A stretch of DNA of 64,000 nt from Rhizophagus irregularis. Taxonomy: Eukaryota; Glomeromycota; Glomeromycetes; Glomerales; Glomeraceae. Shown here one piece after another: positions 17,398-45,425 of the stretch. Position 1 is the stretch's first letter. Each line of letters starts with the position of its first letter. The DNA is taken from the NCBI RefSeq assembly GCF_026210795.1, contig NC_089435.1, forward strand, positions 4,650,001-4,714,000, given 5' to 3'. A program made the position numbers and the translations under genes. The notes under the pieces were generated by a model. The model ran no database searches. It was not told the DNA's origin and was given only the letters and a program-made list of their open reading frames with translations.

Positions 17398-17557
17398 GTA
17401 ATGAATATGGCTATACTCCATTTGAGTCTTTAATAGCTATTGCACACAATATATTTTCATAAAAAGATCAGTTAGTAAGTAAAATTTTTAATAAACAAAT
17501 TATTTTAGTTTGAAAATATTATAATTTACCTTTTATTAATATTTTTAAAATAATGCA

Positions 17558-21333: not shown

Positions 21334-22524
21334 ATGGGACATCAGAAAGAAAAATTCTCTCGTTCCTGTTCCAAACAAAAAACTAGTAATCTAACCTCAC
21401 CTTCCTTTTTCCCTTCTATTGCCCATGATGAAAAATGGTGCAAACTTGCTGACAAGTTAATGGACTCTCAACTTGCTTATATCAAATTGCCCCTAGTTAA
21501 TAGGTGGCAAAGTGTTATTACTTATGAAAAAAATTTGAAGGATTATGAATCCTCATATATTCCCTTGTATCTTCCTGATAATAAAGTCCTCACTACTTAT
21601 CGTCTTGCGTTAGCAGACTCTTCTCGTTATCTTAAATTTTTTCATTTACGTGACCAAAAATATTTGAAATTTGTGGATTTTTGGCGTACCCCCTCTGAAA
21701 GATCAACATTGAAAGATTTCAGAAATTCTTTATTTTCAGAATTTATGCCTCCTACAGTTGTTCCTGCATTTATGCCTGATGATCATCAAGATGACTTTTC
21801 TGATATGACGCTAGATCCTGTCCTTCAATCTGTAATACAAAACCCTGCTTTTCAACAGATTTGGCCTATAGGACCAGATCCATATACTTTTGACTCTGAT
21901 GGTGAAATGGACGAATTTCTTCTCCCTGACTATCCTATTCAACTTATTCCAATTGATTATAAAAATAATGCTACTCAGTGTCACTCTTCTCGTCCATTGA
22001 ATTATGATGATGATGATAGTGATCTCTCTACTTATGTCCCTTCCACTTCAATTAGCGTTGCTCAACTAATGTCAGATACTGGGCTTTCTATTGCTACAGC
22101 TACTCGTCTTGTTGCTAAACTTCCTGCTTTACATGCTGCTGCTAAAGCTATATTTGCTCTACCCATTGTACCCCTTCTAGACAGATCAATTCTTTTATAG
22201 ATTTTGACAAACTTCTCTCAGTTTACGATGTTCCTCTTTTGCCATGTACTTTTGACGCATCTACGTTGAATGATGATTCTGAGTACGAACCGTATGATTC
22301 TGATGATGACTTGCTTTTCTCCTTTTCATCTTTCGATGACTCTTCTTTTATGAGTCCTCTCTTAAAATCTATAATCTATTGTTTCTTTTTCGATCACCTT
22401 TCCTCTATTTTGCTTTGATCTTGGTCCTTTGGTAGCAGTTTCTACTATAATGTTTTCAAATGATATTCCTGAATATAAACCCTTTTTTATCAGCTTCTTT
22501 TTTGATTTTTCAAAATTTGAACGT
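21334..22524 (+). pseudogene. ORF of insertion B, function unknown, frame broken and cut by the Gypsy LTR
   Basis: From ATG 21334 (MGHQKEKFSRSCSKQ) the frame runs to a stop at 22198-22200. The protein is soluble-looking, with an acidic C-terminal half (YDDDDSDLSTYVPSTSIS) and an Ala-rich helix (LPALHAAAKAIFALP). Near 22165 the coding pattern moves to the next frame (INSFIDFDKLLSVYD, DDSEYEPYDSDDDLLFS), so a one-base change truncates it. Acidic low-complexity segments recur in the matching ORF of insertion C. I do not recognise a domain. It sits where a non-LTR element would carry ORF1. I chose 21334 because no earlier in-frame ATG exists. Confidence 0.5.
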
Positions 22525-22902
22525 TGTAGCCATAGATACTGAAGTAATCGCATAATATGGAGGAATAATATGGAATAAAAGATCAAACGATAGAAAGTCA
22601 CATGATTGGATAAAATTAACTGGAAAGGATAAACTTTTAGGAGAAGGAATGATCTACATGATGTAATGTTTATTAAATGATTAACGGAGAACCAATAGAT
22701 CAAGTAGGAAGTTGATCGATGTGGCTTAGCAACCAGTTTATCAAGTTCAACAATAGGAACAATTAGGAGGAGTAATCATAAGCCACAAATGATAAATCAT
22801 ATAAAAAGGAAGGATAGCGAATTAAAGGAACAAAAAAATAGGAACATGTAAAATATTGATGAACTGCAGCCGCAGTAGAAGAATAGCTGACGAGACGCAG
22901 TA

Positions 22903-23460
22903 GAAAAGATAGCACAGCCACAAAAGATGGATTTTTACGATATAATATTTGAAAGATTATTTTATTTTAAAGAAAAGATAGCACAGCCACAAAAGATGGA
23001 TCTTTACGATATAATATTTGAAAGATTATTTTATTTTAAAGAAAAGATAGCACAGCCACAAAAGATGGATCTTTACGATATAATTAAGGTTGCTTGTCTA
23101 AACCTCTTCAAAATCCTACGATTAGTTTCGTCAAAATTTTACTATAGATTTATTATAGTTTCGGCAGAGTTTCGGCAGTTTCGGCATTTATAATAAGTTT
23201 TGGCAGTTTCGCCTTTCTCCAAAGTTTCGCCAGTTTTTTAATATAACTTTAATATAGTTTCGGCAGAATTTCGCTTTTCGGCAAAACGCCATCTTGCCTA
23301 AACCCCTAGGTTTCGGCAAGCAACCTTAGATATAATATTTGAAAGATTATCTTATTTTAAAGAAAAGATAGCACAGCCACAAAAGATGGATCTTTACGAT
23401 ATAATATTTGAAAGATTATTTTATTTTAAAGAAAAGATAGCACAGCCACAAAAGATGGAT
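22903..23460 (+). repeat. 69-bp tandem repeat, four units, interrupted by a MITE (left LTR)
   Basis: Each unit has 69 bases and reads MDLYDIIFERLFYF...IAQPQK in one frame with no stop, so the frame passes through all units. The third unit (LSYF variant) is split by the MITE at 23085-23328; the same variant is third in the right LTR. Confidence 0.92.
23085..23328 (+). mobile_element. MITE of the TAAGGTTGCTTG family, copy 2
   Basis: 244 bp with the same inverted ends as copy 1 and an exact 8-bp duplication GATATAAT (23077-23084 and 23329-23336). It is absent from the right LTR, so it arrived after the Gypsy insertion. Confidence 0.95.
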
Positions 23461-23544
23461 TATATCTTTACGACATAATATTTGAAAGATTATTTTGAAG
23501 AAAAGATAGCGTATTAAAATAGTATAATATATTAGAAAAGATAA

Positions 23545-23555
23545 TATATAAATAG
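23545..23555 (+). promoter_or_regulatory. TATA-like box in the left LTR
   Basis: TATATAAATAG fits a TATA box and is conserved at 35276-35286 in the right LTR. It lies upstream of the AATAAA-type signal, as expected for a U3 promoter. Functional role is inferred. Confidence 0.4.
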
Positions 23556-24162
23556 CATATAAGATAGCGCATAAAAGGGAACACATAACATAAAATATTA
23601 GAAAGAAATAAGAAGTAAGAAAAGAAAGAATAAGAAAGTTAGTTTAAATAGGAGCGGAATGGGAGGTGAATTCCACAGTCGTCAGATACGATGTAAAACT
23701 TTAAGTAAATTAGTTAGTTGTGAATTTTATGAAGAATAAATAAAATACCTTTTATATGAAAATTAATTGTTTCGATTGTTTTTGTTACTATTTTCTTATG
23801 ATGAAAAAGTAATTTTGTTCAATTAACTGTTAGTAAAGCGTAATGTTATTTTAAAGGTAATAGGTTCGCCCTAAACTTTATTGTAATGTTCGCTTAATTA
23901 ATTTTAATTGGATAAATTCATGGTGAATTTAATGTCATAGCAAGAATTATGAAATAAATAAAATATAAACTTTCATAAAGAGAACTATCGTAAATTTGAA
24001 AGAAGAGAAAGGATGAAATATCGCGGCGAGAGCTATCGCAATTTGAAAGTTAAGTAGTAATAAAACTAAACCAAGCAAGAATATTAATATTTCGTGGAGA
24101 ACGAATATACGTTAAAGCAGGGAAGCTTGTTTACCGCCGGGTGGCAGACGGGGATGACAATT

Positions 24163-24178
24163 TGGTGCATGCTCCGAG
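24163..24178 (+). promoter_or_regulatory. Candidate primer-binding site
   Basis: TGGTGCATGCTCCGAG begins three bases after the left LTR. TGG pairs with the CCA end of a tRNA, and the following bases would pair with its acceptor stem. I cannot name the tRNA without a search. Confidence 0.6.
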
Positions 24179-25191
24179 AAAGGAAATGTTGACTTTGCGT
24201 CGACATTTTGACTATCTTCTTATAGTCAAGTACCTATGCGGTATTAAGAAGGAATCGGTCAACAACTAAGTGAATTGATCACTCGCGAAGGAAAAGATCG
24301 TTCTGATCATGGTACCGACGTGGTATTCCGAAGAATCTGAACTCAGAAAAAGAGGTGTTAGAATTAAAATATAATATTGGGAAAAAAGGTTGTAAGTACC
24401 TGAAAAACTTTAAAATGGGAACGGGCGAAATAGCGATATTGTACACCTACCTTAGGAATTATAAAAAGAAGGATGCGGTGATATGATGGAATATAATGAA
24501 CTCGTTTCAAAGTAATAGATTTGTTACAAGAATATCCGGAAAAGTATTGTAGTAAGTCACAAAAGTTGTCGTCTTTAAAGTTTTTGCGCTAATAATTGTA
24601 AAACCAAGAAATTAAGGAAGCCCTCGTAAGATGTTGTATTCTGGGAGGGGCACCATTGTATTTTGCAGATGCCAGAAGTTCCTGGGGATACAATGTTGTA
24701 ACGAAAAGCTGACGAGTAAACTATAAACTCAAGGGTTACGTGGGAACCTGTTACCAAAACACAAGGGTTGCATGGGAACCTATTTAAAACACAAGGGTTA
24801 CGTGGGAACCTATTACAAAAACACCGGCTGTGAATATAACTTCTTCAGATGGGAATCGAAATAATTGGACTCAGACGTGAGTGGAACATCTCCCTACTGA
24901 AAGCATTTTGAAAATGCGTAATTGAATTCACAAGGCAAAAAGAGAAACTATCATCGTGAGTATAACTTCTTCAGATAAAACTGAAAGCATTTAGGAAAAT
25001 GCGCAATTGAACTCACGAAAAGACGATGAACGTTATGGAATAATGCGAAATTTAGGAATATTTGCTGGTCAAATGATGAAATGTGAGTAACAAACCTTGA
25101 AACTACTATACTTCATTGGGAAGGTAAAGGCAAGCCAAGTATAGGTTATTAAATTGTAAAAGATAATAAATAAGAAGAAACACCGTTAAAT

Positions 25192-25283
25192 AAGTATAAA
25201 TGCGTGTGTCGCATAAGTATAAATGCGTGTGTCGCATAAGTATAGATGCGTGTGTCGCATAAGTGAAGATGCGTGTGTCGCAT
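25192..25283 (+). repeat. Four direct 23-bp units in the Gypsy leader
   Basis: Four adjacent 23-base units share the core ATGCGTGTGTCGCATAAG; only the last two carry single-base changes. There are no spacers. The 65-codon minus-strand frame here is produced by the repeat. Confidence 0.9.
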
Positions 25284-25957
25284 AAAGTATAATATGTTGT
25301 GTGTCGACATAATGGTTATAATAAGAGTTAGTACAAGATTAAACAAAGAAGATATTTTGCGTAATATTAAATATATAGATGTAAAGATTACATATATAAT
25401 GAAAAAGAACTAAAAATTCACGAACTTTAGAAGTTATGAGAATTTTGAAGTTCGTGAAATGCGAAAATTATAAATTTTGATGATAAAAGAAAATTTTGAG
25501 GCGCAGTAAAAACTTAGAAAATTTTTGAAATTTTTAGAATGCGCAGTAAAAACCTCCGCAGTCTGAGGAGATTGTGGACTTAGAATAATTTTTGAAATTT
25601 TAGGGCGCAGCAAAAATTAATGGTGAAATATGGCGCAGTAAATATATATATGAAGTTATGAAAGATAAAAATAGCAGAAGAAACTTGTGAAAATCAAAAA
25701 AAAAAAAGAGGATTTAAAGATTGAAAGATTAACATAAGAATATTATGAATAAGTAAAAGATTTAGAAAAAATAAGTTGTTAAATGAATATTCATAATGAA
25801 AGAAAGATTATACATTCAATATAGGTAATAGGAAAGGACAATATAGTAAAGGATGGTTAGAAGATCAAAATAGAAGCGATAAAAATGATATATAAGAGAG
25901 CGAAATTTCAATTTGAATTCTGGATGAATATTTATAATAATTTAATTAGAGTATACG

Positions 25958-26191
25958 ATGGAATGGTATTATCAATGGGAAAGTGAATATAGGACACATA
26001 AAGAAGAACATGAGTTAAGAACAGGAGAATTAGATGAATGTTTAAATTGTGAATTATGTCATCCAATAGTAGATGAACCAATAGTATTCAAGAAATTTTG
26101 GGACGCATTATTTAAGTTCGAAGATACAATAATAATATATAATAATGTAACGATCAAGGGAGTAATAGATTTATTAAGTATGAATAATTAG
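25958..26191 (+). CDS. Small ORF, 77 residues, CxxC pair, unknown
   Basis: ATG to stop encodes an acidic protein starting MEWYYQWESEYRTHKEEHE, with CLNCELC in the middle that could bind metal. It lies 42 bases before the 714-codon ORF. The same style of spaced Cys pairs occurs in that ORF, so it may be a detached first segment of it. No recognised family. Confidence 0.4.
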   Translation: MEWYYQWESEYRTHKEEHELRTGELDECLNCELCHPIVDEPIVFKKFWDALFKFEDTIIIYNNVTIKGVIDLLSMNN

Positions 26192-26233
26192 GAAAGAGAA
26201 GATACAATACATAAAGGAAAATGTAGGGACATA

Positions 26234-28378
26234 ATGGATAGAATAACAGAATCAATAAGATATAGAATACAACCAAAAATGAAAGAAAAAGGATTACGAA
26301 CAATTATATTAGTAATTGTAAGAGATTGTATTGAAGGAGATTTAGAGAATGAAGTATTTGATAGATTAATTGGAAATCCTGAATTAATAGAACACAAATA
26401 TATTTTGGAAGATTGGGATGTTGAAAGAAGGTTTAAAAAATTTTGGCAATGGTACAAGATCACATCGAAAGAAGTTAAACCATTACGAGTAAAGATGGGA
26501 GCAATAAAGACATTCAGGGAATTACTTTATGAAGAAGAAGGAATAGCTACGAATGAGGAGAAAGTAAAAGAATTAATGTCCAATATGGAATATGGGAATA
26601 TAGACATAGAAAATGTTCACGAATATCACAGGAATATGGTACAAAAGATAATAAGAATATTTATAGATACTAGGGGCTTTACAAAAGAACCAGAAGATTC
26701 AGAAAGTGAAGATAGCTTAGAAAGTTATGAAATGAAAAAGAATTTTAATGGGAGTTTATATCTTAGATTTGAAAGATTCAGGTACTGGTGGAATGACAAA
26801 TATGAAGGTAAACGAATACATACATATCATGAAAATGATTCATTAGGATGGTTCGAGAAGATGTTATCTGAAGGAGAGAATTTGCAAAAAGATACTGTAA
26901 AGAAACTGACAGATAGTATGACATTTAAGGATAGCGAAGATATGTATGAAAAAGATCCTATTATAACAAGAATAGATGATGGAGTAATAGAATGGATTGT
27001 AACGGATTTAAAAGTAGTGATGGAAAGAACACAAAAATTTAAGTTAGTGGAGATAGAGCAAGGGGAAGATAATGAAATATATGATTCTGAAGAAGAAATA
27101 GAAATAATAGTAAAAGACAAAACGTGGGAGTTAAATGAAATAAGAATAGGATTAAGACAACTGATAGTGGATCCGAAAGAAAAACTCATCAGGGAAATGA
27201 TGAAATTTGGAATAAAAGAAAAGATAGAAACGGGAGTACTGTTAACATATGATTTTATAAGATATTATATTTTTCAGGAAAGGAGATTCGATAAGATTGA
27301 GGACATAAAGGAATGGATAGATTTGAGTACAAAAATATGTGGTAGATGCAATAAACAGAAATTAGATTATGTGATATCAGAAGAAGATGGCAGATGTGAA
27401 GAATGTAACCAGGAAATACAGGAAGATGAACAAGATGAATTAACAGAATTAAAAAACAACTTAGAAAAGTTAGGATACAAAATAGATGTATCGGAAATTC
27501 AAAGAATAAAGAATTTTGGAGTTAATAATCGAATAATAGTAACAGAAGAATTCATAGAAAGGTATATAAGAATGATAGAATTAGAAGATAGAGAGTTAAG
27601 AAAAGAGGTGCACAAATGGTTAAATGAGAACACAACTTGGTGCGAAAGATGTGAAATAAGATGGATGAATGATATGTTTAGATTAGGAGGAACTGTATGC
27701 AAAGATTGTGAAGAAGAAGATATTGATGAAATTGATGATCGGGTAAAAAGATTACAGAAGATTTTTGAAGATATTGGAGTAATGATGATTGAAGAGGAAT
27801 TGTTAAGATTAACTAGTATGGGATATACAGATGGAGAAATTTTAGATAAAGAATTTATCGAAATCTTTCAAGAAAATAAAAATGAGTCAGAAAAAGAACT
27901 AAAGAAAAAGTTAGATAAGTTGTTGAAAGAACAAGCAGGAGTAATAGAAAGTGAAGAAAGTGGTGAAAAGAGTGATAATGAAGAATCAGAAGAAGATAAT
28001 ACGGATAATTCAGAAAAGATTGGAGAAATATTAAGTCCAGAAGAATATGAAATATGGGATGGAAGTGATGAAGATTTTGAAGAAGAAGAGTCTGAAAATG
28101 AAATCGAAAATGTTATAAATACAGGAGGTTTTGGTCTGAATCAAAATTCAGATTCGAATAGTTCATTAAATTTTAAAAATTCTGACACAGAAAGTGAAAT
28201 ATCTGATTACAATTTACAAGAATTATTTCAAGAGAATATAGTAAATATGGCAAATGAAGCACAAATAAGAAGAATAATGGAGAATGCTATGGAATTGGCA
28301 CCAAATGCATTAGATAATGCGTTAGGAGCAGGACAGACTTTGGCGGATAGGATTCAGACTGCAGGAATGGGGGAATAG
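26234..28378 (+). CDS. Retroelement ORF upstream of gag, 714 residues with two zinc-ribbon-like modules
   Basis: A long Lys/Glu-rich, largely helical protein. Residues 369-395 hold CGRCNKQ...GRCEEC and residues 470-497 hold WCERCEIR...CKDCEEE, two similar modules of paired CxxC that probably bind zinc. Each is followed by a similar segment (LEKLGYKIDVSEIQRIKNFG; FEDIGVMMIEEELLRLTSMG), so the two halves look like an internal duplication. A very acidic tract follows, and the last 45 residues (MANEAQIRRIMENAME, GAGQTLADRIQTAGMG) read like the start of Gag. The stop at 28378 is 6 bases before the gag ATG in the -1 frame, so the two may be one protein separated by a frameshift. Not a standard Ty3/Gypsy part. 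Confidence 0.8.
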   Translation: MDRITESIRYRIQPKMKEKGLRTIILVIVRDCIEGDLENEVFDRLIGNPELIEHKYILEDWDVERRFKKFWQWYKITSKEVKPLRVKMGAIKTFRELLYEEEGIATNEEKVKELMSNMEYGNIDIENVHEYHRNMVQKIIRIFIDTRGFTKEPEDSESEDSLESYEMKKNFNGSLYLRFERFRYWWNDKYEGKRIHTYHENDSLGWFEKMLSEGENLQKDTVKKLTDSMTFKDSEDMYEKDPIITRIDDGVIEWIVTDLKVVMERTQKFKLVEIEQGEDNEIYDSEEEIEIIVKDKTWELNEIRIGLRQLIVDPKEKLIREMMKFGIKEKIETGVLLTYDFIRYYIFQERRFDKIEDIKEWIDLSTKICGRCNKQKLDYVISEEDGRCEECNQEIQEDEQDELTELKNNLEKLGYKIDVSEIQRIKNFGVNNRIIVTEEFIERYIRMIELEDRELRKEVHKWLNENTTWCERCEIRWMNDMFRLGGTVCKDCEEEDIDEIDDRVKRLQKIFEDIGVMMIEEELLRLTSMGYTDGEILDKEFIEIFQENKNESEKELKKKLDKLLKEQAGVIESEESGEKSDNEESEEDNTDNSEKIGEILSPEEYEIWDGSDEDFEEEESENEIENVINTGGFGLNQNSDSNSSLNFKNSDTESEISDYNLQELFQENIVNMANEAQIRRIMENAMELAPNALDNALGAGQTLADRIQTAGMGE

Positions 28379-28383
28379 TAGGT

Positions 28384-29871
28384 ATGCCAACTTTTAGTGG
28401 AAAAGAGGATGAAGATATTAATGATTGGATTAGACAATTTGAGATAGCATTTACAGTAAGTGGACGACCAGAAGGAAATGTTGGAGGAGGTGTATGTAGA
28501 CAAAATAAGGCAAACATAGCTATAACTTGTTTAAGAGGAATTGCATTACAATGGTATAATGAGGAAAAAGAAAGGGTAGCAGCTAATTTAGTGAATTGGT
28601 GTGATCATAATGAGGACAGGAATTTAAAAGGAAGATTAATCGACAGATTTACTAGGAATGATGTTCAAAGAAGAAAGATGTCAGAATTAACAAGAATTAA
28701 ACAGGGAACAAATGAAAGTGTCGAAGAATATACTAGAAGATTTAGGTCAATATTAAGAGTTGCAACTAGAGGTCATGCGTTAGAGGATTTATATCAAGTG
28801 AATTATTTTATTCAAGGGTTAGACGCCATGATAGGTTATCATGTTAGGAAAAGTAATCCGACGAATCTGAATGATGCAGTTAACGAAGCAAAAAGTGAAG
28901 AGAAAGCGAGAGATGAGTTGATGATGAAAACAACAGGGTTGGATATGAAACGAGTAGGACAGGAGAAAAACATGGAAGAAATTTTGAAAGAAGAGACAAA
29001 TAAGTATAAAGGAATGAATCCAATTGCGAAAGAGTTACAAAATAAAGAAGTTAAAAGTGATGAATGGGATGAGTTAATTAATGGAATGAAAAGGTTGGAA
29101 GCACATGTAATGCAGAGAAATGAAGCATATGTAATCCAAAGGAATGGGAATGATAGGAGACCGATCGGAAATAATAATGTCCAAAGAAATAATATGAACT
29201 GGGATAGAATGACTTGTTATACATGTGGAAGAAAAGGACATACTTCTAGAGTTTGTAGGGAAGGTCAAAGAAGATCATATGGAGGAAATAATAAAGGGTC
29301 ATATAGCCAAAATAATCAAGTTAATTACTTTGATGAAGAATATTATGGTGGAGGATATAATGTGTATAATATGGAATATAATGATGAATATGATGGATAT
29401 AATGAGGGTGATGGATATGATAACTATAATAATAATGGATTTGATGGATACGAAGTGAATAACTATGAAGATGAGGAAAGATACGATATGTTTCCAGTAC
29501 CACCTAGAAAGAGTGAAAGAAATAAAGACAAGGTTATGAACGATGAAAGAGATAGAAGAAGAAATGCACAATGGCAAGGACAACAACAAAAAGCACAGGG
29601 GAATAATAAGAGAGGTTTTACGAAAGAACAATTACAGAAAGGATATGAAACTAGAAAGAATAATAATAGGTGTCACAATTGTGGACAACAAGGACATTTT
29701 GCTAGAGAATGTACAAACGAGAAAGTGAAGTTAAATCGAGATATACCAAACGTTGGAGATTTTGATCCATTCGAACAATTTGTAAATTCAAGTGTACCAA
29801 TTAATTGGGGACAAATGATGAATGAAAGACCAGAAGTAAGGAAGAAATTATTAAATGGTTTGAGATATTGA
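28384..29871 (+). CDS. gag: Gag polyprotein with two CCHC zinc knuckles
   Basis: The first 190 residues match the retrotransposon Gag pattern: MPTFSGKEDEDINDWIRQFE at the start, ALQWYNEE, then LTRIKQGTNESVEEYTRRFR and YFIQGL. Two CCHC knuckles lie at residues 278-291 (CYTCGRKGHTSRVC) and 430-443 (CHNCGQQGHFAREC). They are separated by a long Gly/Asn/Tyr-rich stretch that may be disordered. The Gag domain packages element RNA into particles. Two knuckles so far apart is unusual. The true N terminus may lie in the preceding ORF, read through a shift at the G-run near 28371. Confidence 0.93.
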   Translation: MPTFSGKEDEDINDWIRQFEIAFTVSGRPEGNVGGGVCRQNKANIAITCLRGIALQWYNEEKERVAANLVNWCDHNEDRNLKGRLIDRFTRNDVQRRKMSELTRIKQGTNESVEEYTRRFRSILRVATRGHALEDLYQVNYFIQGLDAMIGYHVRKSNPTNLNDAVNEAKSEEKARDELMMKTTGLDMKRVGQEKNMEEILKEETNKYKGMNPIAKELQNKEVKSDEWDELINGMKRLEAHVMQRNEAYVIQRNGNDRRPIGNNNVQRNNMNWDRMTCYTCGRKGHTSRVCREGQRRSYGGNNKGSYSQNNQVNYFDEEYYGGGYNVYNMEYNDEYDGYNEGDGYDNYNNNGFDGYEVNNYEDEERYDMFPVPPRKSERNKDKVMNDERDRRRNAQWQGQQQKAQGNNKRGFTKEQLQKGYETRKNNNRCHNCGQQGHFARECTNEKVKLNRDIPNVGDFDPFEQFVNSSVPINWGQMMNERPEVRKKLLNGLRY

Positions 29872-29900
29872 CTACACTCGGGGGAATTGAAGAATATTAA

Positions 29901-30476
29901 TCAGAAAGAAGAAAATCACAAGCAACAAGATGTAATATAATAATTGAAGGAAAAATGATTAGAGCATCAGTTGATACAGGAGCAGGACCTTCAGTAATAA
30001 CGAATGAACTGAGAAAAGAATTAAATATACCAATAACGAGGAAAAGTAATGTCGTATTAACAATAGCAGATGGAAATAACATAGCTTCATTAGGAAGAGT
30101 GGAAATTAGAATAGAAATTGATGAAAATTTAGAAATACCTTTAGAGTTCGAAGTAATTGACTCGAGAAGAAAAGATTTGATATTAGGAACTGATTTATTA
30201 AGATATGGGATAATAAATATGAAAGAAGGTCTGTTAACAATAGAATGGGATAATGGAATATATGAAATACCAATTGATTTTAGAGGAAAGAAAAATGTTG
30301 AATTTGAGGAGTCAGAGAATAGGGGTGAATTTAATGAAGATCCAAAGAATATAGATGATATAGATGGCAATTCTAGTGAAGAGTCAGAGGGTGAAGATGA
30401 ATATGAGGAGATGGAAAAAGAAGAGTTGTTGTCGATTGTAAAAACTGATAGAGAAAAGAGAGATGAGGAAAAATGA
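29901..30476 (+). CDS. Retropepsin-type aspartic protease
   Basis: The first ATG is at 29955, but the frame is open from just after a TAA at about 29901, with plausible coding (RKSQATRCNIIIEGKMIRAS) before it. The active-site motif is VDTGAGPSVI (Asp codon 29973), and ILGTDLLRYG supplies the second conserved segment. The C-terminal third is very acidic. It cleaves Gag and Pol. Gag ends at 29871 in another frame and 30 bases separate the frames, so a simple frameshift does not join them. The stop overlaps the start of the next ORF as ATGA. Plus-strand start is uncertain. Confidence 0.85.
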   Translation, partial: SERRKSQATRCNIIIEGKMIRASVDTGAGPSVITNELRKELNIPITRKSNVVLTIADGNNIASLGRVEIRIEIDENLEIPLEFEVIDSRRKDLILGTDLLRYGIINMKEGLLTIEWDNGIYEIPIDFRGKKNVEFEESENRGEFNEDPKNIDDIDGNSSEESEGEDEYEEMEKEELLSIVKTDREKRDEEK

Positions 30477-32596
30477 ATGGTCTTGGCTTTCTGAATGAAG
30501 GAGAGACGGTAAAGATGCTAAATGAGAGCAAAGAAGAAAAATTTGAAAAGAAAACACATCTGGGAGAAATGAGCGATGAGGAGAGAATAGCATTTAAAAA
30601 ATTGATAAGGGAATATGAAGATATATTTGAATATGACGAAGAGAAACTGGGAAGGATAAATACAGTTAAACATGAGATAATAATTGAAGAAAATCAAGGA
30701 CCAATAGCACAAAAGAGATATAAAGAAACTGATGAAAAAGGAAAGTTTATAAAGAAAGAAATTGAACAATTGTTAAAGATGGGGAAGATAAGAGAATCAT
30801 GGAGTAATTGGGCATCTCCAGTAACATTAGCAGGAAAGAAAACTGGAAATTATAGATTTTGTATAGATTATAGAAAGCTAAATAATGTGACAAAGTCAGA
30901 TGAATATCCTTTACCCCGGATAGACGAATTGTTAGAAAAATTTAGAAAGGGAAGTTGGTTCACAAGTTTGGACTTAGTAGCGGGATATCATCAAGTGGAA
31001 ATGGCAGAAGAAGATAAAGAGAAAACAGCATTCATTTGTTCACAAGGATTATATGAATACAATGTTATGCCATTTGGATTGAAGAATGCACCAGGAACAT
31101 TTCAGAGATTAATGGATAAAATATTAAAGGAATATATAGGAGAATTTGTTACAGTGTATTTAGATGATATAATGATTTATTCAGAAGATTTTGAGGGACA
31201 TATAGAACATGTAGATAAAGTACTGAGTAAATTGAGAGAGAATAATATGATTGTAAAGTTGAAGAAATGTCAGTTTGGATTGAGAAATATAAATTTCTTA
31301 GGGCATATAGTAGGAAGAGATGGATTGCGACCGGATAAAGAGAAAGTTGAGAAGATAGAAAATATGAGGAGGCCGAAAACTGTTACAGAAGTAAGATCAT
31401 TTTTAGGATTATATTCATATTATAGGAGATTTATAAAAGGTTTTTCGAAAATAGCAAAACCTTTGCTTAACTTAACGAGAAAGAATGAAAAGTTTGAATG
31501 GAAAGAAGAACAACAAAAAGCATTTGACGTATTGAGGACAAAATTGACAGAAAATCCAATTTTAGTATATCCGGACTTCAGTAGAGAATTTATATTAATA
31601 ACTGATGGATCTAAGATAGGATTAGGAGCAGTGTTAGCTCAAATGAATGAAGAAAATAAAGAGGTTGTAATAGCTTACGCAAGTAGGAGTACAGTTGGGG
31701 CAGAAAAGAATTATCCACCAACAGAATTGGAATGCTTAGCAGTATTTTGGGGAATACAACATTTTCAGAAATATTTGGTAGGAAGGAAATTTATAGTGAT
31801 AACAGATCACGCAGCATTAAAAGGATTAACAGATGGAAAGGAACAAACGGGAAGGAGAGCAAGATGGGTAATGAAATTACAACAATTTGACTTTAAAATA
31901 GTACATAGAAGTGGAAAGAAAATTAAAAATGCAGATGGATTATCAAGACTGAGATTTAAAGAAAAAGAAACAGAAAGGAACGAGAATCAAGAAATAACAA
32001 AAATAGAAAGTAATAAGGGGAAATTGAGATATATCAAATTTAGGAATAAATGGTATAATGCTAAAAGATTTAAAGGAAGATGGGATGATGAAAAATATTT
32101 TACCGATAAAGAAGCAATACTTTTGAATTTGGAGGAAAAGACAGAAAAAGAATTATTAGAGAAATTGGGAAGAGAAAATAAGCCACAAGTTATTATAATC
32201 GACGGAGTGGATGGATTAGGAAAAACAAGTATAGTACAAAATTTAATTAAAGAGTGGGAAAAACAAGGATTAAAAGTAAGATTTAATACATTCAAAAGGA
32301 GAAGAAAAGACAAAGGTGAATTTTATGAATCAAAGTTAGAAACAGAATGGAAATTTAGAAAGGAAGTAGTAGAACAAATAAACAGAAGAATGTTAGAATA
32401 TGATGGAGATACAGATATAATAATTCTAGACAAATCGCCATATTGCGAATATTATTATCAGAAGACGAAAAGTTTCAACAGAGGATTAATTATTCCACAT
32501 GGGAACTATGAGATGGAAAAAGAAATATTCAGATTAAAAGAAACAATAGATGAATCAATAGTGATATTTTTGGAAAAAGATGGCAATGTATGTTGA
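30473..32596 (+). CDS. pol: Reverse transcriptase - RNase H - nucleotide-kinase-like fusion
   Basis: Residues about 80-320 are reverse transcriptase: YRFCIDYRKLN, SLDLVAGYHQ with catalytic Asp167, MPFGLKNAPGTFQRLM, and VYLDDIMIYS with Asp231 and Asp232. RNase H follows (ITDGSKIGLGAVLAQ with Asp378; TELECLA; ITDHAALKGL) and ends at NADGLSRL (486). Instead of integrase, the frame continues to a P-loop: IIIDGVDGLGKTS (Asp577, Lys584, Thr585) with QNLIKEWEKQGLKVRF after it, then IIILDKSPYCEYYYQ (Asp653). This order and spacing are those of thymidylate-kinase-like enzymes, which phosphorylate dTMP. The ATG overlaps the protease stop (ATGA), fitting reinitiation. The stop at 32594 cuts the domain short; coding continues in frame. 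Confidence 0.9.
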   Translation: MNGLGFLNEGETVKMLNESKEEKFEKKTHLGEMSDEERIAFKKLIREYEDIFEYDEEKLGRINTVKHEIIIEENQGPIAQKRYKETDEKGKFIKKEIEQLLKMGKIRESWSNWASPVTLAGKKTGNYRFCIDYRKLNNVTKSDEYPLPRIDELLEKFRKGSWFTSLDLVAGYHQVEMAEEDKEKTAFICSQGLYEYNVMPFGLKNAPGTFQRLMDKILKEYIGEFVTVYLDDIMIYSEDFEGHIEHVDKVLSKLRENNMIVKLKKCQFGLRNINFLGHIVGRDGLRPDKEKVEKIENMRRPKTVTEVRSFLGLYSYYRRFIKGFSKIAKPLLNLTRKNEKFEWKEEQQKAFDVLRTKLTENPILVYPDFSREFILITDGSKIGLGAVLAQMNEENKEVVIAYASRSTVGAEKNYPPTELECLAVFWGIQHFQKYLVGRKFIVITDHAALKGLTDGKEQTGRRARWVMKLQQFDFKIVHRSGKKIKNADGLSRLRFKEKETERNENQEITKIESNKGKLRYIKFRNKWYNAKRFKGRWDDEKYFTDKEAILLNLEEKTEKELLEKLGRENKPQVIIIDGVDGLGKTSIVQNLIKEWEKQGLKVRFNTFKRRRKDKGEFYESKLETEWKFRKEVVEQINRRMLEYDGDTDIIILDKSPYCEYYYQKTKSFNRGLIIPHGNYEMEKEIFRLKETIDESIVIFLEKDGNVC

Positions 32597-32806
32597 AAAA
32601 ATTATATTGGAAGAGAAACGAAGAAAATGGAGAAATCGTCATACCCAACATTAAAGAAAAACGAATATTTGGACATGGTTAAAATGTTTAAGGAAAACCA
32701 GGATGTATACAAAGATACCAAAAGATACAGTCAAATTGAAGTTAGGAACGACGATAGTAGTTGGAGAAAAGTATATAAGGAGTTAGAAAAACACCAAAGA
32801 GCTTAG
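32597..32806 (+). pseudogene. In-frame continuation of the kinase-like domain after a TGA
   Basis: After TGA 32594-32596 the same frame stays open for 69 codons to TAG at 32804-32806: KNYIGRETKKMEKSSYPTLK, KKNEYLDMVKMFKENQDVY, ...WRKVYKELEKHQRA. Adding it gives about 200 residues from the P-loop to the end, the usual size of thymidylate kinase, and the tail resembles its C-terminal helices. TGA is one change from TGG (Trp), so a nonsense mutation, readthrough or a sequencing error are all possible. Confidence 0.7.
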
Positions 32807-32821
32807 AATTATATTTTCAAA

Positions 32822-33163
32822 ATGGTATTAGTAAATCGTTATGAGAATTGGTTTCTTACATATCGAGTAAAGGTCGACAAGATATGGAAAGTAACTATAA
32901 AAGAAGAAGGGAACAAAACAATTATCCGTTTAAGGATTGAAGAGGGAGAAAACTTCATACTAGTAGATGTACACATTATAATAAGACTAAAAGAGAAAAA
33001 GGTGAAATTAATTATGGAAGATAAAGACAATATGATAATAGAAGAAAGATTAATGGAAAAAGGATTAGGATGGGTACGATCTAAATTGATTATAGGAAAT
33101 GAAAAATATATAAGAAGGATAGAAATACCAAGGATCAAAAATAAATCGAGAGATAAAAATTAA
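32822..33163 (+). CDS. Small ORF between kinase and integrase, 113 residues, unknown
   Basis: ATG to stop, 16 bases after the kinase frame closes. The product is basic and beta-strand-like (WKVTIKEEGNKTIIRLRIEE, ILVDVHIIIRLKEKKVKLIM) with no Cys pairs or recognised motif. Position and composition match the retroelement, so it is probably part of it. It may be a genuine accessory protein or a remnant of a connecting domain before integrase. The minus-strand frame at 32839-33138 is its shadow. Confidence 0.5.
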   Translation: MVLVNRYENWFLTYRVKVDKIWKVTIKEEGNKTIIRLRIEEGENFILVDVHIIIRLKEKKVKLIMEDKDNMIIEERLMEKGLGWVRSKLIIGNEKYIRRIEIPRIKNKSRDKN

Positions 33164-33197
33164 AAAATATATATGGAACAGTTATCACGACGCTTTA

Positions 33198-33268
33198 TTT
33201 TTACAATACCTTAATTTTTACAACACTTCAACCCTTTACAACATTTCAACCTTTTACAACACTTTAGC
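33198..33268 (+). repeat. Iterated TTTACAACACTTCAAC units ahead of the integrase ORF
   Basis: Four imperfect units of about 18 bases (core TTTTACAACACTTCAACC) fill the space before the integrase ATG. Their T/C and CAA content differs sharply from the purine-rich coding strand around them. Possible roles are internal translation start, splicing or a central initiation tract; none is proven. Confidence 0.65.
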
Positions 33269-33289
33269 TTTTAGAATTACAACATAGAC

Positions 33290-34477
33290 ATGGAAGAGGA
33301 AGAATATAATAAGATAGCGAGAAATATCAACAATGAACGGGAATATGAAATTATAGGAGGATTAATTTACAAAATAAAAGATGGGAAAAGACTAAGAGTG
33401 ATAAGAAAATACGAATTTGAAGGATTAATGTACATAGCTCACGATCATGAATTATCAGGACATTTTGGAATAGATGCAACGTATAATAGGATCAAAGATA
33501 AATATTATTGGAAAGGAATGAGAAAAGATGTGGAAGCTTATGTCAAATCATGTAATAATTGTCAGAGAAGAGGGAAACCAATAGGAAAACATGAACTGAA
33601 TGTAATCAAAGTTATAGAACCATTTTATCAAATTGGGATTGATGTAGTGGGACCATTACCAGTAACAAAGAGAAATAATAGATATATAGTTACAGCGATG
33701 GATTATTTTACAAAATGGCCTGAAGCAAAGGCATTGGAAACAGCAGATGCTAAGGAAATTGCAAGATTTATTTATGAAGATATAATATGTAGGCATGGAT
33801 GTCCAAAGAAGATATTGAGTGATAGAGGAAGTCATTTCAATAATAAATTAGTGAAATCATTAATGGAGGAATTTCAGATAAAACATAACTTTTCGACGCC
33901 TTATCATCCAAAAACTAATGGGTTAATAGAAAGATTTAATAAGACATTATGTGAATCATTAGCAAAGCTAAGTAATATCGAAGATTGGGATTTGAAAGTA
34001 CCAGGAGTATTGTTCGCGTATCGAACTAAAAGGAATGATTCAACGAAAATGGAACCAGGATATTTAATATATGGGAGACAAATGAAGACATTATTAGATT
34101 TAGAAGATAAGGAAATTACCATGGCAGAGAGAGTTAATGAGTTGATCGAAGGATTACCAAACATTAGGAATCAAGCTAAAGAAAATGTCAGGAAATCTCA
34201 GGAAAAACAAAAATCGTACCATGATAAAAAGAATAGAATAAAGCAGAAATTACAAATCAAAGATAAAGTACTATATTATGACGTAGCAAAAGAGAAACAA
34301 TGGTCTGAAAAGTTAGAAGAAAAATGGAAAGGACCTTATTATGTACATGAGATAATTTCTAAAGGATCATACAGAATTAAAACTATGGAAGGGAAGATAT
34401 TGAAAACACCAGTAAATGGTGAATTACTGAAAGAATATATTGATAGGACAAATTTTGAAGTAATAGTTCGAATTTGA
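33290..34477 (+). CDS. Ty3/Gypsy integrase, separately encoded
   Basis: An HHCC zinc domain comes first (HDHELSGHFG ... CNNCQRRG), then the catalytic core with Asp118 (IDVVGPLP), Asp178 (LSDRGSHFNN) and Glu214 (TNGLIERFNKTL). The Asp178-Glu214 spacing is 35 residues (DD35E). A basic C-terminal region follows, with WKGPYYVHEI typical of the integrase tail; no chromodomain is evident. It inserts the cDNA into the genome. In most Ty3/Gypsy elements integrase is the end of one Pol frame. Here 484 bases, a small ORF and a repeat leader separate it from the kinase-bearing frame, so it must be translated by another route or after loss of a fusion. Confidence 0.93.
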   Translation: MEEEEYNKIARNINNEREYEIIGGLIYKIKDGKRLRVIRKYEFEGLMYIAHDHELSGHFGIDATYNRIKDKYYWKGMRKDVEAYVKSCNNCQRRGKPIGKHELNVIKVIEPFYQIGIDVVGPLPVTKRNNRYIVTAMDYFTKWPEAKALETADAKEIARFIYEDIICRHGCPKKILSDRGSHFNNKLVKSLMEEFQIKHNFSTPYHPKTNGLIERFNKTLCESLAKLSNIEDWDLKVPGVLFAYRTKRNDSTKMEPGYLIYGRQMKTLLDLEDKEITMAERVNELIEGLPNIRNQAKENVRKSQEKQKSYHDKKNRIKQKLQIKDKVLYYDVAKEKQWSEKLEEKWKGPYYVHEIISKGSYRIKTMEGKILKTPVNGELLKEYIDRTNFEVIVRI

Positions 34478-34492
34478 TGGGACTCAAATTTT

Positions 34493-34507
34493 AGGTGGGG
34501 GGCAAAC
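34493..34507 (+). promoter_or_regulatory. Polypurine tract
   Basis: AGGTGGGGGGCAAAC lies directly before the right LTR, the expected place for the plus-strand primer of reverse transcription. Confidence 0.7.
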
Positions 34508-34884
34508 TGTAGCCATAGATACTGAAGTAATCGCATAATATGGAGGAATAATATGGAATAAAAGATCAAACGATAGAAAGTCACATGATTGGATAAAATT
34601 AACCGGAAAGGATAAACTTTTAGGAGAAGGAATGATCTACATGATGTAATGTTTATTAAATGATTAACGGAGAACCAATAGATCAAGTAGGGAGTTGATC
34701 GATGTGGTTTAGCAACCAGTTTATCAAGTTCAACAATAGGAACAATTAGGAGGAGTAATCATAAGCCACAAATGATAAATCATATAAAAAGGAAGGATAG
34801 CAAATTAAAGGAACAAAAAAATAGGAACATGTAAAATATTGATGAACTGCAGCCGCAGTAGAAGAATAGCTAACGAGACGCAGT

Positions 34885-35190
34885 AGAAAAGATAGCACAG
34901 CCACAAAAGATGGATCTTTACGATATAATATTTGAAAGATTATTTTATTTTAAAGAAAAGATAGCACAGCCACAAAAGATGGATCTTTACGATATAATAT
35001 TTGAAAGATTATTTTATTTTAAAGAAAAGATAGCACAGCCACAAAAGATGGATCTTTACGATATAATATTTGAAAGATTATCTTATTTTAAAGAAAAGAT
35101 AGCACAGCCACAAAAGATGGATCTTTACGATATAATATTTGAAAGATTATTTTATTTTAAAGAAAAGATAGCACAGCCACAAAAGATGGA
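34885..35190 (+). repeat. 69-bp tandem repeat, four units (right LTR)
   Basis: Four units with the same open frame as in the left LTR; the 99-codon frame from 34910 consists almost wholly of them. The third unit has the LSYF variant. Confidence 0.93.
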
Positions 35191-35275
35191 TTATATCTTT
35201 ACGACATAATATTTGAAAGATTATTTTGAAGAAAAGATAGCGTATTAAAATAGTATAACATATTAGAAAAGATAA

Positions 35276-35286
35276 TATATAAATAG
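35276..35286 (+). promoter_or_regulatory. TATA-like box in the right LTR
   Basis: TATATAAATAG, conserved with 23545-23555 in the left LTR. Confidence 0.4.
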
Positions 35287-35890
35287 CATATAAGATAGCG
35301 CATAAAAGGGAACACATAACATAAAATATTAGAAAGAAATAAGAAGTAAGAAAAGAAAGAATAAGAAAGTTGGTTTAAATAGGAGCGGAATGGGAGGTGA
35401 ATTCCACAGTCGTCAGATACGATGTAAAACTTTAAGTAAATTAGTTAGTTGTGAATTTTATGAAGAATAAATAAAATACCTTTTATATGAAAATTAATTG
35501 TTTCGATTGTTTTTGTTACTATTTTCTTATGATGAAAAAGTAATTTTGTTCAATTAACTGTTAGTAAAGCGTAATGTTATTTTAAAGGTAATAGGTTCGC
35601 CCTAAACTTTATTGTAATGTTCGCTTAATTAATTTTAATTGGATAAATTCATGGTGAATTTAATGTCATAGCAAGAATTATGAAATGAATAAAATATAAA
35701 CTTTCGTAAAGAGAACTATCGTAAATTTGAAAGAAGAGAAAGGATGAAATATCGTGGCGAGAGCTATCGCAATTTGAAAGTTAAGTAGTAATAAAACTAA
35801 ACCAAGCAAGAATATTAATGTTTCGTGGAGAACGAATATACGTTAAAGCAGGGAAGCTTGTTTACCGCCGGGTGGCAGACGGGGGTGACA

Positions 35891-36606
35891 ACGTCATTAT
35901 AAATGGAAAATTTATCGTTCCTCTCTTCTTCCTGTCATGATATTTATCAGTTGGATATTTCTCACCTGTTTTCTTTGGTTTCGGCTTCACTTAAGAATTA
36001 TGGATAGTCTTCTTAAACTGACCTTTTTTTGTTCGATTAATAGGTTTATTAACCTATTTCCTTCTTGGCCTGGTTAGATTACTTTTTTTTTTTAATTTTG
36101 TTTGTTTGGGTCATTTGTTTGATTTGTAGTTGTGTAATTATTTAAGGCGTGTGGTATTTCTTAGTTTGCCATCCCCTTCTATATGATCTATAGTTTTATT
36201 TTATAATTCTCCCTTCTTTATTATTTTGCTTTATTTACAACTATTTTATTTTCTTTTTGCTTTTCTTCGTTAAGAATTTTCTGTAGGTAATATTTTTCTG
36301 GTTTTTCTAACCTTTTTGTAGCTTTTGCTTTTATTACCTTTTATTGGTTTTGTTAGTTTCAGTTTCTTTTTATAAGAAACTATTTAGTCACCTCACAGTG
36401 ATTTTATATTAATCTGGAGGATGTAGTGCCTTTATTAATGATTGTTTATAGTTTTTTTTAGAGCTTTAACCTTCGTTTTGTTTTGTACTATGAGATTATT
36501 CTTTATTTCTTTATTTGTTTTTTTTTTTGAATTTATATTTCTTTTTGATTTGTATATTTCTATAAAAATAAATAAAAAACGTCATAAAGACCATTTGCAT
36601 AACAGT
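35891..36606 (+). other. 3' part of insertion B after the Gypsy element
   Basis: It begins with the duplicated ACGT, then coding-like remnants for about 150 bases, then a T-rich untranslated region. It ends GTCATAAAGACCATTTGCATAACAGT, like the 3' ends of insertions A and C. The frames at 36442-36798 are T-rich and cross into insertion C. Confidence 0.6.
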
Positions 36607-36619: not shown

Positions 36620-37320
36620 TAAAAACTAAAACAACTCTCTCCCGTTACTCTTATAACAATATTGTTACAAAAGAAATTTTGATATATCCATATATTGTTT
36701 ATACCTATAATTATTTCTTCTCTTTTTTTTCTCTTGCTCAGGCCGATGACCTCTTCCTACGACTTCTCAACCTTGAGTTGGGAAGAAGTTTTTTTTAAAC
36801 TTCACGAGGTTGAGGACCTCTGCGCTAAGTGTATTCTCAAACAAAAAACTTTATTAGCCCATTTCAACTCTCTTTCTGATAGCTCTTCCGCTAAATCATG
36901 TGTTTACTTGGCTTTTGGCCCTCTCCACCAACTAGACGACTCTCTTTTTGAACAAAAATGCCTTCTATACTTACGTTTAGACTTTCTTTCGTTTACTGCA
37001 AATTCAAAAAATGATATCACAATTCTCTCTGCTAACGATCATCCATCATATGATGATTCAGTAAATAATGATCCATCTCCTCTTCCATTAACTGTTTGGA
37101 CTTCTAACCATGAGGCTAATCCTAATGTTATCTTAGATTTATGCATCCCTTCTTTACAACGTACCAATCATTTTTCAGTTGCTATATTTGGCGCACTCCT
37201 AAATTTCTTTGTAAATACTGACGTCTTTTCTATGATTTCCCTGCATCTTTCAAATGTGCACAGAAATTTAAAAAGAATTTATTTTTTACACGTTTGGTCT
37301 TGTCCTCTTCTACAATACGT

Positions 37321-38629
37321 TGTCACCCCCGTCTGCCACCCGGCGGTAAACAAGGTTCCCTGCTTCTGTTATATGTGCTCTCAGCGAAACATTAACATTC
37401 TTGCTTGGTTTAGTTTTATTACTACTTAACTTTCAAATTGCGATAGCTCTCGCCACGATATTTCATCCATTATCTTCTTTCAAAATACGATAGTTCTCTT
37501 TACAAAAGTTTATATTTTATTCATTTCATAATTCTTGTTATGACATTAAATTCACCATGAATTTGTCCAATTAAAATTAATTAAGCGAACATTACAGTAA
37601 AGTTTAGGGCGAACCTATTACCTTTAAAATAACATTACGCTTTACTAACAATTAATTAAACAAAATTACTTTTTCATCATAAGAAAATAGTAACAAAAAC
37701 AATCGAAACAATTAATTTTCATATAAAGGGTATTTTATTTATTCTTCATAAAATTCACAATTAACTAATTTACTTAAAGTTTTACATCGTATCTGACGAC
37801 TGTGGAATTCACCTCCCATCCCGCTCCTATTTAAACCAACTTTCTTATTCTTTCTTTTCCTACTTCTTATTTCTTTCTAATATTTTATATGTTATCTTTT
37901 ATGCGCTATCTTATATGCTATTTTATATGTTATCTTTTCTAATATGTTATACTATTTTAATATGCTATCTTTTCTTTAAAATAATCTTTCGCATATTATG
38001 TCGTAAAGATATAATCCATCTTTTGTGGCTGTGCTATCTTTTCTTTAAAATGAAATAATCTTTCAAATATTATATCGTAAAGATCCATCTTTTGTGGCTG
38101 TGCTATCTTTTCTTTAAAATAAAATAATCTTTCAAATATTATATCGTAAAGATCCATCTTTTGTGGCTGTGCTATCTTTTCTTTAAAATAAAATAATCTT
38201 TCAAATATTATATCATAAAGATCCATCTTTTGTGGCTGTGCTATCTTTTCTACTGCGTCTCGTCAGCTATTCTTCTACTGCGGCTGCAGTTCATCAATAT
38301 TTTACATGTTCCTATTTTTTTTGTTCCTTTAATTCGCTATCCTTCCTTTTTATATGATTTATCATTTGTGGCTTATGATTACTCCTCCTAATTGTTCCTA
38401 TTGTTGAACTTGATAAACTTGTTGCTAAGCCACATCGATCAACTCCCCACTTGATCTATTGGTTCTCCGTTAATCATTTAATAAACATTACATCATGTAG
38501 ATCATTCCTTCTCCTAAAAGTTTATCCTTTCCGGTTAATTTCATCCAATCATGTGACTTTCTATCGTTTGATCTTTTATTCCATATTATTCCTCCATATT
38601 ATACGATTACTTCAGTATCTATGGCTACA
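37321..38629 (-). mobile_element. Solo LTR of the Gypsy family, reversed, 1309 bp
   Basis: Forward it reads TGTCACCCCCGTC...TATGGCTACA, the reverse of the LTRs at 22525 and 34508. ACGT flanks both sides (37317-37320 and 38630-38633). It has three instead of four 69-bp units, accounting for 69 of the 74-base length difference. Solo LTRs arise by recombination between the two LTRs of a full copy. Confidence 0.95.
38017..38254 (-). repeat. 69-bp tandem repeat, three units (solo LTR)
   Basis: Same unit and same open frame on the minus strand (frame 37996-38226) as in the full element. Confidence 0.9.
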
Positions 38630-39179
38630 ACGTACATCAGTTTGACTCTTGTCACGTCCTCTCCGATCTGTTGATTTATTTCAAAAAATTTTTTCTGATT
38701 CTTCTATAATTACTCCTCATATTTCAGTGACGTTTGACACTGCTGATAGTGATATTAGCGCTCTTCCAGGACCGGGAAAACCTATAATGGAGGTCACTGT
38801 AGTACCCGGCACACTAGTAAAATCCATTGAATTTTTTATATATACAATTTTTAATGAAGCCAAAATGTGTGGATTAAACTTATCTGTTTAAGTTTAGAGT
38901 TAAATGCATGATTTATACACTCAATTTAGATTTTTATATATTCTGTGTAACACAAAAAGGTGGTTCGCATAATTAGTAAATTTTTTAAAAAGTGGTTCGC
39001 GTTATTATAAAATTTTTTTCGGAAAATTTAATGATCTCAGTTAATATTGATATTAAAAGAATAATTTATGATTCATTTTATTTTTCAGACATTTCTGTAT
39101 GATTTGTTAGATTTTTAGTTTAATTACTTAAGAAAAATTTTTATTAATTTGGGCAAAACCATCATTTTACTATTGTCCG

Positions 39180-44159: not shown

Positions 44160-45425
44160 TTTAACTCTTTGAATATCCTATGTATGTAGAAGGTAAATTA
44201 ACTAAAATATTGCTAAATTCTTCTTTGGTTGGCATTGTTTCTTTAAGCAATAAAGTTTTAATATTTTTTTTTCTTCATTTATTATAACTATTATTTTACG
44301 TTTAGGAGCAAGATCTATATCATTTAATTGTTGAAAATTTTCATTAATTGGTACTGAACCAGATGCTGTGCTTTCATTATTTCCCTCAAGTACTTTTCTT
44401 TTTTGTAAAGATACTATTGATTTATTTATCAATTTTATATCTGTTTTAACTACTTTTAAATGTTATCTTTCTTTTGTATTTATTTGTTCAGTTTAATAAC
44501 TTCTTGACAATAAACTTCCTTTATTCTTTTTAATCCTTTATTATAAGCATTATTTAACTTTTCCAATTTTTTTTGAATTAATCATGATTAAGGTTGCTTG
44601 TCTAAACCTCTTCAAAATCCTACGATTAGTTTCATCAAAATTTTACTATAGATTTATTATAGTTTTGGCAGAGTTTTGGCAGTTTTGGCATTTATAATAA
44701 GTTTCGGCAGTTTCGCCTTTCTCCAAAGTTTCGCCAGTTTTTTAATATAACTTTAATATAGTTTCGGCAGAATTTCACTTTTCGGCGAAACGCCATCTTG
44801 CCTAAACTCCTAGGTTTCAGCAAGCAACCTTAATCATGATGGTGAATTATTTTTAAAAACCTTGTATTCTATATAATTACTTATTTCAAATATTTTTATT
44901 AGGTTTTCTACCAATTTATATAGAGAGTCAATTCTATTATCAACTTTACGATTTTTTCTATTATAATTATTAGAATCTAAAATTCATTTAATAATACATC
45001 AATTCTCTCCTTTTCTTCCTAAGTTGCCCTAATTTGAAGATTTAGATTTTCTTGATTAATGACATTTTCAATTATATTTTTTTTAACATACCTAACTCCA
45101 TATATTTCTAAAGTTTTATCAAATTCTGAATAGTGACCTTTTTTTGTTAAATTAATAGAAGCATAATATTGAAGTTTTTTTTCAAGTTGAGGTACTTTTT
45201 AAGGATTAACAAAAATGAGCCACAGATGTCATATAGTTATTTTTGCTAATAGCTGGAAAAAGAGGAGCGAAAGCTGTTAGACTATCTTTAGAATCATCAT
45301 CTTGGTTTACAACTTTTTTGTGTGAGTTGACTAATTGTAGTTGAATGGATTTGCCAGATGTGTGATTGTTTTTGTCAAGTTGTAACTTTTTTAATTAACT
45401 TATGGCATGGTCCCATTGTGGCCAA
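44160..45425 (-). pseudogene. Decayed gene of a repeated fungal family, split by a MITE
   Basis: On the minus strand, readable protein begins at about 45425 with PDVGYNWPQWDHAIS, passes a stop, and goes on LKKLQLDKNNHTSGKSIQLQ, then DSKDSLTAFAPLFPAISKNN and ASINLTKKGHYSEFDKTLE, with several stops and frame changes. After the MITE at 44589-44832 it continues into the 76-codon frame 44432-44202, which is Lys-rich (LAPKRKIIVIINEEKK). Composition and pattern suggest one gene of a multicopy family. I cannot name a function. Confidence 0.5.
44589..44832 (+). mobile_element. MITE of the TAAGGTTGCTTG family, copy 3
   Basis: 244 bp, exact 8-bp duplication ATCATGAT (44581-44588 and 44833-44840). It has several TTTTGGCAG for TTTCGGCAG changes relative to copies 1 and 2. 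Confidence 0.95.

Follow-up and report, generated by a model that had tools for sequence, protein, structure and literature searches.

Retrotransposons with long terminal repeats (LTRs) are known to carry accessory enzymes and domains, including dUTPase, RNA demethylase, exonuclease, chromodomain and others (PMC2864245, PMC5408684, PMC6431247, PMC9289625, PMC6338049; here and below, parts of the cited papers are drawn on). Elements bearing a dUTPase include fungal PosPlaTy3 and Tuber elements, Juno, Vesta and TelKA of bdelloids, and a planarian giant Gypsy (PMC2864245, PMC5408684, PMC6431247); in some retroviruses the dUTPase lies between reverse transcriptase (RT) and integrase (PMC5408684). 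Ty3/Gypsy elements of orchids carry an AlkB-type RNA demethylase with activity shown in vitro (PMC9289625). The subject here is a Ty3/Gypsy element of Rhizophagus irregularis, in a stretch of 64,000 nucleotides from contig NC_089435.1 (positions 4,650,001 to 4,714,000; "the window", whose own numbering is used), with a P-loop kinase in its Pol between RNase H and integrase. Computation established the domain, its position, predicted fold and conserved residues, purifying selection on it, its presence throughout a clade of elements, and its exchange as a cassette. The best explanation, judged moderately probable from sequence and modelled structure, is that a glomeromycete Ty3/Gypsy clade acquired a small-molecule kinase of the thymidylate kinase (TMPK)/deoxynucleoside kinase (dNK) fold and kept it in this place, where it would phosphorylate deoxynucleotides or deoxynucleosides for cDNA synthesis.

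Position, spread and constraint of the kinase

In the window copy (locus L001 of family A, the labels A to F being those of this analysis), the Pol open reading frame (ORF; 30473-32596, + strand) encodes RT and RNase H, matched by Pfam RVT_1 and RNase H, and continues into KPQVIIIDGVDGLGKTS, with the P-loop GVDGLGKTS at 32204-32230 and DKSPYCEYYYQ at 32429-32461, as part of a kinase of about 210 residues (32180-32806). A preliminary description of this DNA had claimed such an unbroken passage from RNase H into a P-loop domain, and both the claim and its coordinates hold. A single TGA (32594-32596) closes the ORF two thirds of the way into the kinase (32180-32593, + strand); the frame is then open to a TAG at 32804-32806, and the piece past the TGA (32597-32806, + strand) takes the place of the LID and the C-terminal region of sister loci. 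The domain is stop-free in the 20 fetched family A loci other than the window copy, and the TGA looks like a lesion confined to one copy rather than a family-wide signal for readthrough. Ahead of the kinase, family A has a conserved linker of about 40 residues.

A six-frame search of the genome (146.7 Mb, 32 contigs) gave 165 candidates, 150 of which were scored as kinase matches, with some copies represented by more than one piece; many sit in open frames of 706-779 amino acids (aa). When the best 150 of 280 candidate RT matches were compared with the kinase places, a kinase was found at most 7 kb downstream on the same strand for all 33 RTs at least 85% identical to that of the window element, for 86 of 87 at 69-74% identity and for the single RT at 67%, making 120 of 121 at 66% or above. 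Among RTs at or below 65% identity the count is 0 of 29 within the same distance, though a very diverged kinase could escape the search. From this distribution, the kinase marks a clade, which probably acquired it once. A frame-broken kinase relic (L041, near G000:C6:4454486) lies outside the 150 matches.

Kinases of subfamilies B to F are 54-87% identical to that of L005, and their joining to neighboring domains differs. RT, RNase H and kinase form one continuous frame in families A, B and D. Family C shows this joining at C16:4182937, with RT and kinase in one 674-aa frame, and has a shorter frame, of 412 aa, at the fetched locus L031. In family E (L034-L036), RT and RNase H occupy a separate 493-aa frame, and kinase and integrase share one of 600 aa. 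The order RNase H, kinase, integrase is kept wherever examined, including families with kinase-integrase continuity.

Three protein searches returned 98 matches (of 2,469 candidates), 35 (of 965) and 114 (of 8,000 scored, E<=0.1). The organisms named among them are R. irregularis, R. clarus, R. diaphanus and Glomus cerebriforme; the others are metagenomic or unlabelled. In 13 deposited or metagenomic proteins that were checked, RT/RNase H, kinase and integrase, where present, always come in that order. Fusions of RT, RNase H and kinase include P0100, P0106, P0110 and P0127; fusions to integrase, with or without RNase H, include P0107, P0109, P0123, P0126 and P0131, of which P0109, P0123 and P0131 combine parts of RNase H, kinase and integrase in a single protein and P0107 is a kinase-integrase fusion as in family E. 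P0092, from R. diaphanus, retains only the kinase end, adjoining integrase. Numerous metagenomic matches span about 250 aa and come from short contigs, so that they may or may not lie in elements.

The kinase is under purifying selection. Between families, the ratio of nonsynonymous to synonymous substitution (dN/dS; pairwise NG86, 11 chosen loci) is 0.075-0.21 for pairs with defined dS, many between-family dS values being above 1 or undefined; in the least saturated family pair, A/B, it is 0.08-0.10. The corresponding polymorphism ratio (pN/pS) within families is 0.20 in A (21 loci including the window copy) and 0.069 in B (10 loci), with 0.088 and 0.039 for RT in the same sets. In-frame stops interrupt the kinase in three of 38 loci (L001, L030, L037), and 37 of the 38 keep the P-loop pattern. 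A fusion confined to this copy, with relaxed selection on the P-loop in others, would have counted against the preliminary description; genome, deposited proteins and dN/dS show instead a widespread and constrained one.

The domain also has a history of its own. In windows of 120 columns, nucleotide identity between families A and B is 85-93% in the kinase, 62-83% in RT and RNase H, and 48-72% in the covered part of integrase; between A and D it is 66-79%, 69-89% and 65-92% (mostly 78 or more), respectively. The spacer between kinase and integrase, which in the window holds a 113-aa ORF (32822-33163, + strand) with no clear family in a Pfam search, is barely alignable between A and D. A tree of 21 kinases places A with B (support 99/98), while in the RT tree of the same members C is the closest partner of A (100/100) and D joins the two next (100/98). 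The approximately unbiased (AU) test rejects both a grouping of A, C and D imposed on the kinase alignment (p 8.7e-7) and one of A and B imposed on the RT alignment (p 9e-52); since the groups were defined only once their divergences were known, these p-values are descriptive. Together the conflicting identities and trees indicate that the kinase moved between families on its own, as a cassette. Recombination during reverse transcription could be the route, and such exchange suggests a module under selection in its own right.

Fold, substrate and source of the domain

What kind of kinase might this be? The predicted structure (predicted local distance difference test, pLDDT, 91.7) has the TMPK/dNK fold across the kinase domain: the TMPK fold with its P-loop extends over the whole domain, and so does the dNK fold. 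Structures of TMPK and of deoxycytidine kinase (dCK) tie in comparison with the second model, and identity to TMPK and dNK structures is 9-18% among the matches listed. P-loop, substrate-side and LID-side residues, including a LID-side arginine, are conserved. In keeping with the nucleotide kinase originally proposed, profile searches do give such a match: the viral profile PHROG 761, "thymidylate kinase", covers residues 2-205 of 209 at E 5.8e-15, and Pfam Thymidylate_kin matches 37 of 41 members at E<=0.01 (best 8.5e-8), with Pfam dNK matching seven of 41 (best 1.6e-4). The relative P0107 scores 30.2 bits against PF02223, above its cut-off of 27; the window piece reaches 16.2 of the 27 bits set for PF01712 (dNK). 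A PDB sequence search returned mainly FtsY P-loops, which were set aside as P-loop noise, those examined spanning the N-terminal part only. The same genome has a dNK in a single 335-aa ORF (L044:1984-2991, - strand), with 110.5 bits to Pfam dNK and an N-terminal extension of about 120 aa.

A number of observations weigh against the reading of a clade-wide kinase that serves cDNA synthesis. As to its spread, the 150 kinase matches include several pieces of single copies; 25 of them have no RT within 7 kb among the best 150 of 280, so that some would be fragments or lie beside RTs outside those best 150; one RT (C13:674052, 72% identity) lacks a kinase nearby but has a match 16 kb downstream; and the 3.2-kb locus of the relic L041 gives no RT, gag or integrase match at E<=0.1. 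As to function, the window copy itself is broken by its TGA, one family A locus (L022) has a changed P-loop, and constraint on the kinase is about half of that on RT from the same copies. As to identity, the best match of PHROG 761 in the genome is a plain dNK gene, which makes this a broad profile that cannot separate the two enzymes. The PF02223 cut-off is missed by L005 (22.2 bits), L024 (19.0), L031 (18.6) and L032 (21.1), and L005 falls far short of the NCBIfam dTMP-kinase cut-offs (TIGR00041, 20.5 versus 83.25; NF005923, 21.7 versus 193). Thymidylate kinases usually have DR or ER (DR[Y/H]) where all 49 sequences counted here have Asp-Lys; these are rows of alignment A4 chosen for completeness, with fragments, most near-identical copies and L022 left out. 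Given the TMPK/dCK tie, the missed Pfam and NCBIfam cut-offs and the invariant Asp-Lys, identity as a thymidylate kinase is not settled. For the thymidylate-kinase-like domain of the preliminary description, the fold, the Pol position between RNase H and integrase and the selection stand, but with these same points dTMP is no more than a putative substrate.

A rival reading, to which the tie lends itself, is a salvage enzyme, a deoxynucleoside kinase making dNMPs from nucleosides in place of a nucleotide kinase. Foldseek ranks Giardia deoxyadenosine kinase first (E 1.2e-6 and 1.7e-6), AbmG and dCK rank highest with the first model, the S-x-Y behind the Asp-Lys resembles the ERS-x-Y motif of dNKs, and there are the seven Pfam dNK matches. 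Such an enzyme is nonetheless rather unlikely, given that Thymidylate_kin matches far more members with a better score, that the P-loop is of the TMPK-like form G-x-D-G-x-G-K, and that a basic F-K-R-R-R follows strand 2 where dNKs carry a catalytic Glu. Another possibility, and an improbable one, is a different target altogether, the domain being a polynucleotide 5'-kinase, an NTPase, or a structural or targeting module without dNTP synthesis. The invariant DK in place of DR/ER would suit this, as would weak PHROG polynucleotide-kinase matches of the relatives P0140 and P0147 and their Nudix partner, which is not obviously a dNTP enzyme; the structural match to dNK and TMPK across the kinase domain and the conserved LID-side arginine and substrate-side residues speak against it. 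That the domain is a functionless hitch-hiker, or an artefact of assembly or annotation, is hardly credible: transposable elements do pick up sequence by chance, and the window copy has its stop, but between-family dN/dS well below 1 strongly disfavours the idea, as do retention throughout the clade and in several species, the two fusion arrangements and the cassette exchange.

Assuming instead a kinase that supplies deoxynucleotides, the domain would be catalytically active and use ATP to phosphorylate deoxynucleoside monophosphates, most likely dTMP, or deoxynucleosides. As part of Pol it would be made with RT and enter the particle or its precursor with it, relieving a shortage of deoxynucleoside triphosphates (dNTPs) in reverse transcription. 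A and T make up 69% of the window element and A alone 43% of its sense strand, so that first-strand cDNA needs dTTP most, a need that a dTMP kinase, or a broad dNMP/deoxynucleoside kinase, would feed. The fungus lives as an obligate symbiont, and its many nuclei are long-lived and for the most part do not divide, a setting in which dNTPs may be low. Both the A-rich strand and the lifestyle of the host fit a role in dNTP supply, and in dTTP supply by inference. If the enzyme is active, this would suggest that dNTP supply limits glomeromycete reverse transcription enough for selection to retain it throughout a clade. A bolder form of this reading, possible though on the doubtful side, is a separate new kinase family with DK for DR/ER, related to Nudix-kinase proteins, which became fixed in Pol, phosphorylates deoxynucleotides beside RT, would allow copying at low dNTP levels and moves as a cassette.

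Three metagenomic Nudix-kinase proteins, P0140, P0144 and P0147, are the only relatives found with a different partner domain. Like the element kinase they have the DKSPY motif; unlike the element Pol they have Nudix ahead of the kinase and neither RT nor integrase in the protein. Their identity to P0025 is 44% (P0140), 40% (P0147) and 34% (P0144) over 205-246 positions, and P0147 is 38% identical to L005. In alignment A3 the linker resembles the last part of a Nudix domain, but such an origin is not supported, a 36-row linker-only profile missing all three proteins when set against 3000 shuffled sequences. The host's own thymidylate kinase was rejected as a close source: its CDC8-like gene (C13:3242213-3242981, with exons encoding DRYAYSGVSYS) and the element kinase do not match significantly. 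Viral contigs scanned with A1, P0140, P0144, P0147 and A3 held no confirmed relative, and GTDB genome contigs scanned with A3 gave one 42-residue match, on a Dechloromonas contig. Phage records had no match to the window piece or to P0147; P0025 gave one weak tmk match there (E 8e-3) and P0140 seven weak ones (best E 0.2). These viral, prokaryotic and phage scans turned up no source for the Nudix-kinase proteins. A Nudix-only search of the R. irregularis genome returned weak matches (best E 0.006).

Other parts of the window element

The element is a complete, young Ty3/Gypsy LTR retrotransposon of 13.4 kb (22525-35890), all features being on the + strand. Its LTRs, delimited by self-blastn (5', 22525-24159; 3', 34508-35890), both have TG...CA ends and differ at 13 of 1384 aligned positions, leaving out a 245-nt insert in the 5' LTR (23085-23329); the 4-bp repeat ACGT flanks the whole (22521-22524 and 35891-35894). 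Between them gag, with Retrotrans_gag and two CCHC zinc-knuckle stretches (28384-29871), aspartic protease (29955-30476), RT, RNase H and integrase, with an H2C2 zinc finger and rve core (33290-34477), follow in Ty3/Gypsy order, the kinase being an insertion in it. Given the intervening 113-aa ORF, expression of integrase may need another step. Ahead of gag is a 714-aa ORF (26234-28378) without a Pfam match at E<=0.1; one stretch of it looks similar by eye to the N-terminal part of the deposited protein P0004.

Directly inside the 5' LTR, TGGTGCATGCTCCGAG (24163-24178) has, by eye, the look of a tRNA-complementary primer-binding site. The insert belongs to a repeat of about 245 nt with four copies in the window (17154-17408, 23085-23329, 44584-44832, 49387-49631), perhaps a miniature inverted-repeat transposable element (MITE). 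Tandem repeats of 69 bp occur within LTR sequence at 34816-35229 and 37945-38251, and a copy of the LTR in inverse orientation, at about 37311-38636, is perhaps a solo LTR.

Comparison with known systems

Some of the protein matches are labelled "thymidylate kinase" or "Thymidylate kinase-like domain" by annotation pipelines; the similarity has thus been flagged, and, as far as found, the literature holds no description of it. A nucleotide kinase in an LTR retrotransposon did not turn up in the titles and abstract beginnings listed, a set without subscription papers, preprints or Repbase, nor was any paper found combining "thymidylate kinase" with "LTR retrotransposon". The word "kinase" has no occurrence in the main text of PMC2864245, PMC5408684 or PMC6431247, and the parts of two papers on R. 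irregularis transposable elements drawn on here bring up kinases either among expanded gene families or as genes of plants (PMC8647823, PMC11075540). dUTPases in retroelements are known; a kinase adding to the dNTP supply rather than cleaning it is undescribed for LTR retrotransposons in the literature searched.

With fungal Ty3/Gypsy (Metaviridae) elements the window element shares TG...CA LTRs, a short target repeat, a zinc-knuckle gag and the customary succession of protease, RT, RNase H and integrase; it differs in its kinase between RNase H and integrase, its 714-aa ORF before gag and its length of 13.4 kb. The kinase itself shares fold, P-loop and size with PF02223 and PF01712, and stands apart from both in falling below their curated cut-offs, in DK for DR/ER and in its 9-18% identity. 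The orchid AlkB elements are comparable as a lineage-specific enzyme capture, but of a different enzyme, in an additional ORF (PMC9289625). The dUTPase elements likewise have a captured enzyme of nucleotide metabolism inside Pol (PMC2864245, PMC5408684, PMC6431247): dUTPase removes dUTP and is placed at the ends of Pol or between protease and RT in the elements named above, whereas the enzyme described here is a kinase of another fold. The rationale given for dUTPase in retroelements (PMC2864245) nevertheless comes close to the logic proposed for the kinase, by way of a different chemistry.
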